IMG/VR virus record: IMGVR_UViG_3300044981_000204
Location: 56,022 to 120,021 of that record
Reading direction: 5' to 3' (one strand)
Origin: a virus
DNA length: 64,000 nucleotides
The translations under genes were made by a program, and so were the position numbers. Below are positions 5,799 to 62,001 of the stretch, piece after piece; positions within the stretch are counted from its first letter, which is position 1, and every line of letters starts with the position of its first letter. The notes under the pieces were generated by a model. The model saw only the letters and a program-made list of their open reading frames with translations. It made no database searches and was not told the DNA's origin.

Positions 5799-6476
5799 AT
5801 GATTAGGCCAATGATCTTGTTGCTTGCGCCGTTGGCCCTAGCGGTGTCGCAGCCCACGGTGCAGCCCGGTGGCGTTCGCCATGTGACCGTCTCATTCAGC
5901 GCCCAGGGGGCGTTGGGGTCCTCCCTCACCGGGTTGAGCTTCACGGGCTATAGTGCCACGGTGTGCAGTGCAGATGGCCAGGGCATCGACGTGGGCGGTG
6001 GGAGGGTTTGGCAGGCGGCTGAGTCCTTGGGGTTGAGGCTCGTCACGCCCCACGTTGCCTCTCTAGCCGCAACACAAGCTAAGGCCAGATCAAAGTGGCA
6101 GATAATGGCCGTGTTGGGTGCTGAGCTGATGTTCGACATGGCCGTAGTAGCTGGCGCAGACATCGTTCACGTGAACCCTGCTAAGGTCGTTGGCAAGGTT
6201 TGGCGAATCACCCCAATCATCCTCAATAAGAAGCTGGGGGATTGGAACGCTCAGCAGGCCCTGGTCCACCCGGACCTGGTCTCATCCTTCGGAGACCTTG
6301 CCCTGTACCCGGACCACATCATCAGCGTGTCGTCCGGCGGAAACTGCCCACAGAGGCTGTTCCTCGCATCTTCGGGAGGACCGGATGGTGGCTCGGTGGA
6401 TCTGCAGATAGCTGTGCTGCCACCAGCAGTGGTGTTCGCCCCCACCCCACAAGCTGCTCCCGTTCTCGGGAAATAG
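5799..6476 (+). CDS. Secreted-type hypothetical protein, 225 aa
   Basis: ATG start. Residues 1-16 (basic Met-Ile-Arg, then a Leu/Ala core, then Ala-Val-Ser) look like a cleavable signal peptide. Two hydrophobic stretches near residues 100-120 could be membrane-associated. No domain recognised. It is the last + strand gene before the convergent junction. A second export-type signal in this small module suggests that some of these proteins act in the host envelope. Confidence 0.55.
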   Translation: MIRPMILLLAPLALAVSQPTVQPGGVRHVTVSFSAQGALGSSLTGLSFTGYSATVCSADGQGIDVGGGRVWQAAESLGLRLVTPHVASLAATQAKARSKWQIMAVLGAELMFDMAVVAGADIVHVNPAKVVGKVWRITPIILNKKLGDWNAQQALVHPDLVSSFGDLALYPDHIISVSSGGNCPQRLFLASSGGPDGGSVDLQIAVLPPAVVFAPTPQAAPVLGK

Positions 6477-24809: not shown

Positions 24810-25134
24810 TCCCTCGGTCCCTCCTATTTTTAAGCGCCGACGATATGGCACTTAGGAAGTCGTCCACCGCCGAGTCGATCGCCTCAACCAGCGAGGGCTT
24901 AGTGGCTGAACGCACGACCACCTTTCCCCTGCCGTACTTCTCCTCATACCTCACGAGGGAGCAGTAGTACTGGTCGCCCGGGACCATCGACAGCACTATG
25001 CCCGGCGACGTGTCGTCGGTGGGGTACATCTTGGTGAGGACCCCTAGGGACTTCTGGAGTCGCAGTAGAGGGGCGTCTGACGGTAGCTTGCCGTCGACCT
25101 TCTTACTAACTAGCTTTTTCTTCGTCTTTAGCAT
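24802..25134 (-). CDS. Hypothetical protein, 110 aa
   Basis: Basic N-terminus (MLKTKKKLVSKKV), then a mixed domain with GIVLSMVPGDQYYCSLV and a helical end. Overlaps genes on both sides by a few bases, so it is co-translated with the two MazG-like genes. No family recognised. Confidence 0.5.
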   Translation of the reverse strand: MLKTKKKLVSKKVDGKLPSDAPLLRLQKSLGVLTKMYPTDDTSPGIVLSMVPGDQYYCSLVRYEEKYGRGKVVVRSATKPSLVEAIDSAVDDFLSAISSALKNRRDRGNG

Positions 25135-52268: not shown

Positions 52269-52478
52269 TCACCTAGCGCTGATCCATTGCCAGCTCCCGA
52301 GGACGTCCATCCTGTAGCTGCCCAGCATGTCGTGCTTGCGCAGGTGGTGCTCCCACGAGCCCCGAGGAGGCTTGCTGGGCCAGAGGTGGAAGATCCTCAG
52401 GCCCACTTCTTCAGCTATCTGCAGAGCGTGGTTCCTGTCCCCCACCTCGCGCTCTAACCCCTTGTACCTCATCCACAT
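52269..52478 (-). CDS. Hypothetical protein, 69 aa
   Basis: Start ATG at 52476-52478 (a second ATG two codons later). MWMRYKGLEREVGDRNHALQ, then IAEEVGLRIFHLWPSKPPRG. The open frame continues upstream but that part shadows the tiny membrane gene. Unrecognised. Confidence 0.5.
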   Translation of the reverse strand: MWMRYKGLEREVGDRNHALQIAEEVGLRIFHLWPSKPPRGSWEHHLRKHDMLGSYRMDVLGSWQWISAR

Positions 52479-52489
52479 GGGCCTGGAGC

Positions 52490-52585
52490 TCAGTGACCGG
52501 AGTCGGAGACCAGCAGCAGCCAGACTATCCCGACCCCGATAGCGATGATCAGGAGTTCCACCAGCGCGCGACCGACCTTCCTCAA
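52490..52585 (-). CDS. Tiny membrane protein, 31 aa
   Basis: TTG at 52583-52585 with GAGGTGGGAAG just before it. LVELLIIAIGVGIVWLLLV is one transmembrane helix with a Lys/Arg N-terminus and short polar C-terminus. Second such protein in the window; could be a lysis regulator or membrane-active peptide. Tentative because of its size. Confidence 0.4.
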   Translation of the reverse strand: MRKVGRALVELLIIAIGVGIVWLLLVSDSGH

Positions 52586-52649
52586 CTTCCCACCTCATCA
52601 AATACCTTTACGAGCCATCGAATTTTCGGGGATTCTGTTGCCAGGCTCC

Positions 52650-53014
52650 CCTAGGGCCCCGCTACGCGCGGCCTATTAGGCCGCGTACGCCAGGACCAGG
52701 GGTTGAACCCGGGGCCTGACTGGCATGGTGACTACCTTTTTGGCGGCACCTGTGGTTTGCTACGTTCCAGGGCAACCTGATGCTAGGTCGACCCGCGGCG
52801 TTCGCCTGCCGATTGCCTCCAGCGCCCCTCACTGCCACGTCGAAACCAATTCGCCCCCACCGAGGGAGTGATGGCACACGTCTTGATGTCCTGCAAGATA
52901 ATTGCGCTCATGCATAGTGTGTTGCCCCATCACTGCCCTGGTGGAGGCGCCGGGGATCGAACCCGGGTCCGCGATAGCTACTCACGCCTTCATCAGCAAA
53001 ATCAATCCCTCACT
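52650..53014 (-). ncRNA. ssrA: Circularly permuted (two-piece) tmRNA
   Basis: On the - strand the acceptor piece comes first: TTCGATC T-loop within CCGGG/CCCGG stem and a 3' end CGCCTCCACCA (CCA at 52939-52941). An ~80-base spacer follows, then the 5' piece starts GGGGGCG (52852-52858) and continues AATTGGTTTCGACGTGG, the tmRNA 5' hallmark. GGGGGCG pairs with CGCCTCC over seven positions with one G-U. CAAAAAGGTAGTC precedes a frame from 52729: Thr-Met-Pro-Val...Leu-Ala-Tyr-Ala-Ala and two stops (TAATAG) within a GCGGCCT/AGGCCGC hairpin. Outer ends are estimates. Confidence 0.82.
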
Positions 53015-53018
53015 CAAT

Positions 53019-53303
53019 CTATTGTACATCGGAGATTTGGCGGTGCACAGGAATGTTGCTGAGTTGTTCCCGATACTCTTGCGGGTGCAGCAGGCAAAAC
53101 GCCGGGAGTCCCGCGAACGTTCCTGGCAGAGTAGTGGCGCACACGTTGCCCTCATAAGTGATACTCCTGCTGTCACCAACGAAGTAGCCGAACTGATCGC
53201 GGATCCGCCCCGGGACCACGATCCCGTCCCAGGTACCTAGTTCGAACTCATGGCTGAGTTTACATCGAAACAGGACCCGGTCTCTGTGCTTGAGCCAGAG
53301 CAT
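53019..53303 (-). CDS. Hypothetical protein, 94 aa
   Basis: MLWLKHRDRVLFRCKLSHEF, then ITYEGNVCATTLPGTFAGLP and FCLLHPQEYREQL: a basic alpha/beta protein. Its last codons (GTA CAA TAG) coincide with the promoter-like CCGATGTACAAT that precedes the tmRNA. Unrecognised. Confidence 0.55.
   Translation of the reverse strand: MLWLKHRDRVLFRCKLSHEFELGTWDGIVVPGRIRDQFGYFVGDSRSITYEGNVCATTLPGTFAGLPAFCLLHPQEYREQLSNIPVHRQISDVQ
53021..53032 (-). promoter_or_regulatory. Promoter-like CCGATGTACAAT before the tmRNA
   Basis: Fits the CCG-N3-TANAAT family; a start ~7 bases further on would begin the pre-tmRNA near 53014. It overlaps the end of the 94-aa gene. Confidence 0.45.
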
Positions 53304-53623: not shown

Positions 53624-53843
53624 TCTAATGAACCTCCCTAGGTAGCCCGCCGAGGGACGTCAGGTATGGGCGGGCTGGGTTTGAACCAGCGTAGGACGCA
53701 GGAACATTGGAAGGTCCCTCCCCACCCTGCAAAGTGGGGTTTAAGATACGCCCCGGGGATGAATCGCCGTGGCGCCGCGTGCACCACCACAGTACGACGA
53801 ACCTCTTCCCAACCGCACAGCACTCAGCGGGCTGCCTAGGGAC

Positions 53844-53864
53844 AGGGGGTTGCGGGAACCCCCT
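53844..53864 (-). terminator. Perfect hairpin AGGGGGTT...AACCCCCT
   Basis: 8-bp perfect stem with a 5-base loop, directly after the 111-aa gene stop. A U-run is absent, so it is a probable 3' end element rather than proven terminator. The rest of 53624-53875 contains a T-arm-like hairpin but no gene I trust. Confidence 0.4.
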
Positions 53865-53875
53865 GGTTGGTTGCC

Positions 53876-56354: not shown

Positions 56355-56950
56355 CCTGGCCCCCTCAGGGAGAGCACAGAGCACCCGAACTCGACCACCA
56401 GCGCTATGGCGGCTCGGTAGGTCGACCAGGGTTGACACTCGGTATGTTCGGCCAACTCGTCTGGGTCCTCGGACCTGAGCCAGTAGCCTATGTCTCGGAC
56501 GAGGCACCCGACCCCCACCTTCGTGGGGGAGTTTGGGTAGACCGGGTAGGGGTGGCACTGGACCTGGAGGGGGGTTCGGGTGCAGGTGACCAGGTCGCCG
56601 AGCTGGACCCCGTTGCCGAGCACGACCCCGTCGCCGACCACAGCCCCGTTGCCGAGCACGGCCCGGTCTCCGACCACGGCCCCGTCTCCGACCACGGCCC
56701 GGTCGCCGACCACGGCCCCGTTGCCGAGCTCGGCCCAGTTGCCGAGCTCGACCCAGTTGCCGAGCTCGGCCCCGTTGCCGACCACAGCCCCGTTGCCGAG
56801 CACGGCCCAGTTGCCGAGCACGGCCCGGTCGCCGACCACGGCCCCGTTGCCGAGCTTAACTTTGAACCCTATCTTGATCGTCCTACCGTTTGTCAGCTTT
56901 CGCCAGCCTAAGTTATCCTGAGCAGCCGCCATGATCTCATCTACCGTCAT
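56351..56950 (-). CDS. Left-handed beta-helix (hexapeptide-repeat) protein, 199 aa
   Basis: ATG at 56948-56950 (GGAGG 11 bases upstream). Residues ~27-125 are about 16 hexapeptides of the form VVGDGA/VLGNGA/ELGNWV, the LbH repeat of acyltransferases, followed by CTRTPLQVQCHPYPVYPNSP and a helical end. No catalytic His is obvious in the repeats, so an acetyltransferase is uncertain; a structural spike-like helix is another option. DNA of the helix is an 18-bp degenerate tandem repeat. Confidence 0.75.
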   Translation of the reverse strand: MTVDEIMAAAQDNLGWRKLTNGRTIKIGFKVKLGNGAVVGDRAVLGNWAVLGNGAVVGNGAELGNWVELGNWAELGNGAVVGDRAVVGDGAVVGDRAVLGNGAVVGDGVVLGNGVQLGDLVTCTRTPLQVQCHPYPVYPNSPTKVGVGCLVRDIGYWLRSEDPDELAEHTECQPWSTYRAAIALVVEFGCSVLSLRGPG

Positions 56951-57251: not shown

Positions 57252-57549
57252 GACCGCACCGCCCTTGCGCCGCTCACCAAGCCATGGTTCCAGAAGGCCT
57301 TAACTTGCGCCATATGTTCGTTGCACGCCATATGCCACCATGTGTTCGTTGGACTTCCCTAGTTCGACAAAACCGCGCCCGGGCCTCGACCATCTCTAAC
57401 ATGACGTGGAGGGCGGGCGCGGGGGCGGGGGCCTTTTTCAGATGTATCAGATTACATTTGCCTGAAGCAGAGACGCTACCGCCCAACCAGTTACATGGCG
57501 CTACCATCTAACAGATGTGGCCGCAACCACGACTTCCTAAGTGCCATAT
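57252..57549. other. Intergenic stretch
   Basis: No convincing gene. It holds the second CAACGAACACATGG repeat block (57308-57370), a G/C run near 57410-57435 and low-content sequence. An open - frame at 57274-57507 lacks an SD and looks unlike its neighbours. Confidence 0.35.
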
Positions 57550-57702
57550 CGTCGGCTGACGAAACAGCGATGGGTTCCGGACTCGGGGAACCGGCGAACC
57601 CGCGAACTTCGTGAGGCGGCAAGCACTCGCTAGATCGGCAGGTTTGCTGGAGCGGATTCGCGCGGAACCCCGACTCAGGAACCCATCTTAAAGCAGCCGA
57701 CG
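57550..57702 (-). ncRNA. Candidate structured RNA
   Basis: Nested complementary arms: CGTCGGCTG/CAGCCGACG (57550-57558 with 57694-57702, perfect 9 bp) enclose GATGGGTTCC/GGAACCCATC (57569-57578 with 57678-57687, perfect 10 bp), which continues as CTCGGGG-like pairs. A promoter-like CCGACATACAAT lies 37 bases upstream (57739-57750). No ORF of note inside. It resembles a stand-alone folded RNA or long leader; not a known family to my eye. Confidence 0.55.
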
Positions 57703-60876: not shown

Positions 60877-61106
60877 GCCTTTCTCCGACGCCAAGTATCG
60901 GGGCCAACTTCATCATAGCCCCGCTCATCCATAGAGAACATCTCTAAGCGTTCCCCTATGGGCTCGAGCAACTTGCATAGCTGATCATATGCCCGATCAT
61001 AGGTTTCCACGTTGGGCGCATCGACCATTGTTCCAGTGAGCAGGTGCAGCTCGTGCGCTCTACCGCGGAGTGCAGCAAATCTTTCTAAAGTTGACAGCTC
61101 TGCCAT
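60873..61106 (-). CDS. Small helical protein, 77 aa
   Basis: ATG at 61106 right after leader R8 (GGGAGGAATC). MAELSTLERFAALRGRAHEL, then YDRAYDQLCKLLEPIGERLE: helical, perhaps coiled coil. Unrecognised. Confidence 0.58.
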   Translation of the reverse strand: MAELSTLERFAALRGRAHELHLLTGTMVDAPNVETYDRAYDQLCKLLEPIGERLEMFSMDERGYDEVGPDTWRRRKA

Positions 61107-61119
61107 GATTCCTCCCGAC

Positions 61120-61194
61120 CCCGGACTCCAGCCGCCATATCCAGGCGTAGCTCCCCTGTCTACGGGAGCATCGCCAATGCTGCTGGAGTCCGGG
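61120..61194 (-). promoter_or_regulatory. Structured leader R8 (cloverleaf-like)
   Basis: CCCGGACTCCAGC and GCTGGAGTCCGGG form a perfect 13-bp stem. Inside, on the - strand, are AGCAT-TGGCG-ATGCT, GCTCCC-GTAGACA-GGGGAGC and CGCC-TGGATAT-GGCG hairpins. The SD of the 77-aa gene follows at once. Confidence 0.65.
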
Positions 61195-61207
61195 CTCGGG
61201 ACGAGCC

Positions 61208-61360
61208 CTACCGCGCCAGCGCCTTCTCCCTCCGCACCCGCTCCAGGTGCTTTTCGCGCTCCTCAGCCGTCTGCGGCAGGTGTCCCCGCCTCAGGAACCT
61301 GCCAACGCTGCCCCTTGGCTCGGCGCCGCAGCAGCATTTCTTCAACTTCTTCAAGAGCAT
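61208..61360 (-). CDS. Tiny basic protein, 50 aa
   Basis: ATG at 61358-61360 with AGGAGG upstream, after leader R9. MLLKKLKKCCCGAEPRGSVG, then REKHLERVRREKALAR: three consecutive Cys in a Lys/Arg-rich protein. Unrecognised. Confidence 0.55.
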   Translation of the reverse strand: MLLKKLKKCCCGAEPRGSVGRFLRRGHLPQTAEEREKHLERVRREKALAR

Positions 61361-61377
61361 TTTAACTTCCTCCTTCT

Positions 61378-61470
61378 CCAGACTCCCTACCCAGGACTTC
61401 CCCGAAGTGGGTCTCATGCACTTTGCGGCATGAGCGAGACCTCGGAACCAGTCCTGAGTAGGGACTCTGG
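61378..61470 (-). promoter_or_regulatory. Structured leader R9
   Basis: CCAGACTCCCTAC-CCAGGACT and its partner AGTCCTGAGTAGGGACTCTGG close an ~90-base element with GGTC...GACC/TCATGC...GCATGA and ACTTC-GGG-GAAGT hairpins inside. A GGACTCTGG-AGA-CCAGAGTCC hairpin flanks it (61463-61483). Confidence 0.6.
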
Positions 61471-61491
61471 AGACCAGAGTCCAGGACTACT

Positions 61492-62001
61492 TCAGTCCCA
61501 CTTGATGTTGCCGGCGGCCATCAAGTGATTACGATAATACGAAAAGATTCTCGCCGGGTCTTGCTTCGTCTGCAGGAGCCCCGCGGCCGCTCCGGCACGG
61601 ACCACGCCAAAGATCTCCTCCTCGGGCATGTCCCGCTTCGGCTGACCGAACAGGATCCGCTGCAAAGCGGAAACTTGTTTGGTTTTATGGAAGGTAATCG
61701 GAGCTTGTAGAAGGTGGTACAAGGGCCTTCCTTTTCCACTTGTCGGCTTAACAACTGGTACCGCGACCGGAGCCTGGGTTGTTGCGGCGAGCGCCGCAGC
61801 TTCCTTCTTGAGTTCCTCGAGCTCCGCGAGCAGCTCCTCGGTCGTCTTCTGCTCCGGCTCCCGGACCTCGGTCTCCCTCACGATGTCCTCGATCGCGGCG
61901 CCAACCATGGCGTCACCGATGGTAGCTTGGATGTCCATCTTCTTCTCCTTTTCGTTGTTACCGCCAACGCGCGCGGCCTTCTTGCCAAATTTTTTGGCCA
62001 T
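61492..62001 (-). CDS. Repeated-family protein D
   Basis: 169 aa from the ATG at 61999-62001. Basic start (AKKFGKKAARVGGNNEKEKK), an acidic helical middle, then the shared end: LQTKQDPARIFSYYRNHLMA, then AGNIKW. Closest to protein C. Leader ACCTCACAAGACCATTGTA region carries the promoter seen also at 57.7 kb. Confidence 0.62.
   Translation of the reverse strand: MAKKFGKKAARVGGNNEKEKKMDIQATIGDAMVGAAIEDIVRETEVREPEQKTTEELLAELEELKKEAAALAATTQAPVAVPVVKPTSGKGRPLYHLLQAPITFHKTKQVSALQRILFGQPKRDMPEEEIFGVVRAGAAAGLLQTKQDPARIFSYYRNHLMAAGNIKWD

Follow-up and report, generated by a model that had tools for sequence, protein, structure and literature searches.

A permuted tmRNA gene in a long intergenic gap

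The minus strand of the window (the whole 64,000-nucleotide stretch analyzed here, with which a virus record of 120,021 bases ends) carries a complete permuted tmRNA gene at about 53057..52624. Judging from its sequence, we consider it probable, at roughly 85%, that a tailed phage here carries a functional two-piece tmRNA gene, circularly permuted and of the alphaproteobacterial type. The gene occupies a long gap between small same-strand ORFs (53303..53019 and 52601..52269). When Rfam models were run with Infernal (cmscan), RF04321 (tmRNA_permuted) scored 82 bits (E 3.7e-14, span 53000..52676; cut-off 47 bits). RF01849 (alpha_tmRNA), searched against the region alone, was matched over its whole length (model 1-355, 53057..52624) at 48 bits (E 3.6e-12), slightly under its gathering cut-off of 50 bits. 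ARAGORN independently called the permuted form of tmRNA, starting at 53031, with the tag AAKKVVTMPVRPRVQPLVLAYAA followed by two stops. A first-pass annotation, made from the letters alone, had placed such a gene at 52650-53014. The locus was right but the limits were too short: the acceptor piece runs from about 53031 and the coding piece to about 52628, and an interval ending at 52650 leaves out the hairpin (52651..52628) at the coding piece's 3' end. The nearby sequence yielded neither a sigma-70-like promoter nor an intrinsic terminator, and a repeated 18-mer (D3) that precedes the gene is not a genome-wide promoter motif. The parts of the gene are as follows.

52939..53031, minus strand: acceptor piece, encoded first and forming the 3' half of the mature tmRNA; start at 53031 by ARAGORN, 53000 by RF04321 and 53057 by RF01849, the 5' limit being approximate
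52970..52978, minus strand: acceptor-piece strand of the P2 helix, GCUAUCGCG; 8/9 pairs with 52839..52831
52950..52966, minus strand: T arm CCGGG-UUCGAUC-CCCGG (CCGGGTTCGATCCCCGG); 5/5 pairs
52939..52949, minus strand: acceptor 3' strand CGCCUCC, discriminator A and encoded CCA; 7/7 pairs with 52858..52852, including G3.U70
52859..52938, minus strand: intervening segment of 80 nt, whose long closing hairpin extends the acceptor stem (folding and covariation)
52628..52858, minus strand: coding piece beginning GGGGGCGAATTGGTTTCGACG, encoded second and forming the 5' half of the mature tmRNA (RF04321 and RF01849 alignments)
52831..52858, minus strand: acceptor 5' strand GGGGGCG, loop AAUUGGUUUCGA and P2 3' strand CGUGGCAGU (covariance-model alignments and pairing)
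52679..52747, minus strand: tag frame AAKKVVTMPVRPRVQPLVLAYAA with resume codon GCC at 52747 (ARAGORN; GCAAACCACA-NNN-GCC spacing as in the viral gene L149, described below)
52696..52712, minus strand: T-arm-like hairpin CCGGG-UUCAACC-CCUGG within the tag frame; repeats the true T arm over 21 nt at 81%
52673..52678, minus strand: tandem stops UAA UAG (sequence)
52667..52685, minus strand: stop-bearing hairpin CGCGGCCU-AAU-AGGCCGCG, 8 bp, stops at the top (pair probabilities 0.8-1.0)
52628..52651, minus strand: 3' hairpin of the coding piece, GGGGA-GCCUGGCAACAGAA-UCCCC (DNA: GGGGA-GCCTGGCAACAGAA-TCCCC) (RF01849 match, covarying stem)

The anatomy read by the first-pass annotation was borne out part by part. 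An acceptor piece with encoded CCA (T arm 52966..52950, then CGCCTCC-A-CCA at 52949..52939) precedes a separate 5' piece (from 52858), and the two acceptor halves pair at seven positions as claimed, all seven pairs being standard, with a G.U at position 3 and a discriminator A. A G.U at acceptor position 3 is the alanine determinant. Acceptor halves and T arm fold together (7/7 and 5/5 pairs), the P2 helix has one A-C mismatch, and the T arm is one of only five such 17-mers on both strands of the 120 kb. Folded together, the acceptor stem and the intervening segment reach -50.2 kcal/mol (z -5.6), which none of 200 shuffles equaled. The short frame does end Leu-Ala-Tyr-Ala-Ala, and its two stops, UAA UAG, sit atop an 8-bp hairpin.

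In principle, a permuted call could come from misreading a one-piece tmRNA of standard form or a tRNA-like false positive. RF04321 alone is no proof of permutation, because it passes its cut-off on tmRNAs that are standard by ARAGORN: across 284 genomes from a single phylum, chosen because one of its members had the exact T-arm pattern, this happened 8 times, with a maximum of 57 bits, and the best-scoring loci were of this kind. The decision here falls to part order, T arm, intervening hairpin and RF01849. Only upstream of the 5' piece is there a genuine T arm with CCA, the 80-nt segment with its hairpin separating the two; beyond the coding piece, on its downstream side, no T arm with acceptor strand and CCA was found. 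ARAGORN's call is of the permuted form, and RF01849 is matched over its full length. This is the gene order of permuted two-piece tmRNAs, as had been proposed, and it refutes the one-piece and false-positive readings, whose probability we put close to nil.

Covariation and relatives among permuted genes

We compared the window gene with 16 other permuted tmRNA genes of phages, plasmids and contigs. The phages phiCbK and CcrBL9 (Caulobacter), RcSimone-Hastad and RcRudolph (Rhodobacter), BUCT628 (Acinetobacter) and Lacusarx (Sphingobium) supplied six of them, alphaproteobacterial plasmids three, IMG/VR contigs six and a fecal phage contig one. In permutation tests, which ignore relatedness, although the strands nonetheless differ widely from gene to gene, P2 strands of the same gene paired in fixed register at a mean of 7.1/9 positions versus 4.8 between genes (16 genes in total; 0/20000 permutations), the stem closing the intervening segment covaried in 13 genes (0/5000), and the 3' hairpin stem around a conserved AACAGAA loop covaried in 15 genes (0/3000). 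Across about 15 permuted genes, three separate helices hold their pairing despite sequence change. The 3' loop CCUGGCAACAGAA is common to phiCbK, Rhodobacter phages and alphaproteobacterial plasmids; phage BUCT628 has a similar hairpin in its gene, which is of beta type, so the feature is not exclusive to alpha_tmRNA.

These data bear on the possibility that the gene was acquired by the phage from a host and is now decaying and no longer functional. Decay could account for a covariance-model score of 82 bits, below those of many permuted tmRNAs (104-144 for several of them), and for a tag that lacks ANDN and contains an extra hairpin; there is also no close phage relative in which constraint could be tested. 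However, the essential parts are all intact and paired, pairing is compensatory in three helices, the frame is open and closed by tandem stops, and other phage genes score lower still (phiCbK 71 bits, CcrBL9 73), so that we regard loss of function as improbable.

The functional two-piece gene that we favor shares with the alphaproteobacterial two-piece tmRNA (RF01849, RF04321) the permuted order, encoded CCA, G3.U70, an intervening segment, a stop in a hairpin after the tag and the 3' CCUGGCAACAGAA hairpin. It differs in its canonical T loop TTCGATC (GGGCGGT-type in the RF01849 consensus), in its 23-residue tag that starts AAKK rather than ANDN, and in an RF01849 score slightly below the cut-off. 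In pairwise comparisons, where free gapping inflates identities and only the ranking was used, the best score was to L149 (IMGVR_UViG_3300025921_000053, 2654-2966) and the second best to phiCbK. L149 has the acceptor-piece motif GCTGATGANGGCNNRAGTAGC, for which it is the sole other match in all viral contigs, and GCAAACCACA-NNN-GCC ahead of its tag, but its intervening segment is 6 nt and its tag is AKDEPFALPMAA; in 13.4 kb of the L149 contig no proteins similar to those of the window phage were found. PhiCbK likewise carries a permuted gene, with a similar 3' hairpin; unlike the window phage, it and its relative CcrBL9 have tags with AANDNDVV and tRNA genes nearby, and phiCbK carries a GOLLD RNA about 0.5 kb from the tmRNA on the other strand.

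Two further phages are comparable. Marine methylophage Melnitz bears a permuted ssrA related to alphaproteobacterial ssrA, and has a glutamine riboswitch (PMC9004378), whereas no Rfam riboswitch was found in the window. Sphingobium phage Lacusarx has a permuted tmRNA (RF01849, 79.5 bits) in a genome of similar size (130 kb), but there the tmRNA is annotated in the record, is accompanied by 24 tRNA genes and encodes the tag ANDNDVVTAEVRLAA (PMC5648845). ARAGORN called no tRNA genes for the window phage except a doubtful one at 6228..6324. Among viral contigs, 55 matched the T-arm pattern, seven of them with permuted genes; neither a strict permuted-gene pattern nor the exact 5' motif had a match there.

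The statement that tmRNAs are rare in phages proved too strong. Permuted phage tmRNA was described in 2022, with 53 two-piece cases in 18,146 phage genomes, 50 of the 53 from marine or aquatic samples (PMC9004378), and more recur in the phages searched here. The window gene is therefore another, fairly divergent example; what is new is a well-supported, fairly divergent phage tmRNA with an unusually long tag, from a phage for which no close relatives turned up in the searched collections. It supports the view that phages of hosts with permuted ssrA often bring their own tmRNA.

Several of the compared genes have escaped annotation. The permuted tmRNAs of phiCbK, the Rhodobacter phages, CcrBL9 and Acinetobacter phage BUCT628 (the last of beta type) are not annotated at their locations in the published genomes, and in RcRudolph an annotated hypothetical protein overlaps the gene. 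Large alphaproteobacterial plasmids of Bosea, Methylobacterium and Microvirga also carry permuted tmRNA genes.

The tag peptide and a hairpin within its frame

The tag, AAKKVVTMPVRPRVQPLVLAYAA, is long (23 residues) and basic and has no ANDN start; the commonest tag length in a 2025 tmRNA database is 10 (PMC11915505). Its resume codon was set at GCC 52747 because the spacing from GCAAACCACA equals that in L149. It begins AAKKVV where phiCbK reads AANDNDVV, and ends LAYAA; AYAA-type endings also occur in cellular tmRNA tags, e.g., ANHSSQPALAYAA. Such a non-standard tag is a natural variant for asking which residues govern degradation and adaptor binding.

The T-arm-like hairpin within the tag frame is another of the only five such 17-mers on both strands of the genome. 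Since shuffled sequences fold about as well as the region (z -0.9) and the hairpin was noticed post hoc, no conclusion is drawn from it, and it may be due to chance. An origin by tandem duplication was rejected: the 21-nt, 81% repeat is weak, in-frame and not at the position of a leftover 3' half. One might also imagine that the tag is a signal modified by the phage, with the ANDN start gone and an added T-arm copy encoding a basic Pro/Arg segment; such a tag would escape the host tag adaptor and direct rescued chains to another fate, while the in-frame T-arm mimic would slow or regulate tag translation. We hold this to be a long shot.

A standard-form viral tmRNA on another IMG/VR contig (L143, 3300008516_000402) has the tag AKKVVHGHFGAHAMAA, with AKKVV in common with the window tag, and its tag frame also holds a hairpin-forming stretch, GGGCACTTCGGTGCCC.

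Phage setting and proposed mode of action

Carriage by a tailed phage, also part of the first-pass annotation, is confirmed by genes for terminase, portal and an HK97-type major head (capsid) protein on the same contig, which further encodes DNA polymerase, primase, helicases and thymidylate synthases. The proteins are distant from all those in INPHARED (e.g., DNA polymerase 38%, primase 44% at best), no INPHARED DNA matches were obtained at E 1e-5, and searches of IMG/VR with primase and major capsid protein revealed no relatives. The alpha-type tmRNA hints at an alphaproteobacterial host. As a host marker, the T arm was discarded: its exact pattern in GTDB genomes led mainly to Nitrospirota, Planctomycetota, Dormibacterota, Dadabacteria and Myxococcota, and ARAGORN called standard tmRNAs in nearly all of these genomes. 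SmpB (PF01668) had no match in the 120-kb record, which is possibly incomplete; SspB and tyrosine integrase had none either, a provisional absence for the same reason.

The order of parts in the sequence predicts a single transcript with the acceptor piece, the intervening hairpin extending the acceptor stem, and then the coding piece. By analogy with known two-piece tmRNAs, host RNase P and tRNA 3' processing would remove the intervening segment, leaving two RNAs that the acceptor stem and the P2 helix hold together. Charging would be by host AlaRS via G3.U70, and host SmpB would carry the RNA to ribosomes stalled on broken mRNA; with no SmpB match on the contig, the RNA would need SmpB and processing from the host. 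Translation would resume at GCC 52747, so that the stalled chain receives Ala-AAKKVVTMPVRPRVQPLVLAYAA, and release at UAA would be followed by a host protease reading the ...AA end. The phage would most likely profit by having ribosomes recycled and kept available amid mRNA degradation during infection. The first-pass suggestions that the RNA could retag stalled host or phage proteins, or replace host ssrA, are conjecture.

Alternatively, the RNA may be made to interfere, either by titrating host SmpB or by adding a non-degraded tag that protects phage proteins. The tag lacks the AANDN-type start of the other alphaproteobacterial tags compared, which is the contact of the SspB-alpha adaptor, and no SspB was matched in the record. 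Strong tmRNA inhibition is reported for an RNA similar to the tRNA-like-domain-only RNA of phage DS6A (PMC4131195), and the authors of the Lacusarx paper likewise suggest counteraction of host tagging (PMC5648845). Yet the tag resembles degradable ones in its Ala-Ala end and hydrophobic stretch, and the full coding piece, superfluous for a decoy, is kept; interference thus appears unlikely to us, and ribosome rescue by a functional two-piece tmRNA remains our preferred reading.

Other structured or repeated segments occur in the window. Upstream of the tmRNA gene, 246 nt at 53630..53875 (minus strand) form a closed multibranched fold (z -3.75, 0/200 shuffles) that contains a perfect T-arm-like GCTGGTTCAAACCCAGC; the segment has no credible Rfam match and no INPHARED match, and its fold strength, 12th of 1000 minus-strand stretches scanned in the genome, is not unique. 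Folding is exceptionally strong at 60929..61640 (minus strand; z about -8, 0/20 shuffles), where long hairpins lie partly over small ORFs and no Rfam match was found; its GGGAGGAATCA element recurs elsewhere (repeat D5). The segment 57400..57728 (minus strand) also folds very strongly (z about -5, 0/100 shuffles), with no Rfam match. An exact 28-nt inverted repeat, GCCGACGATATGGCACTTAGGAAGTCGT, is present at 24836..24863 and 57529..57556, 32.7 kb apart, and 18-bp units form a tandem array at 56558..56899 with an open frame on either strand.
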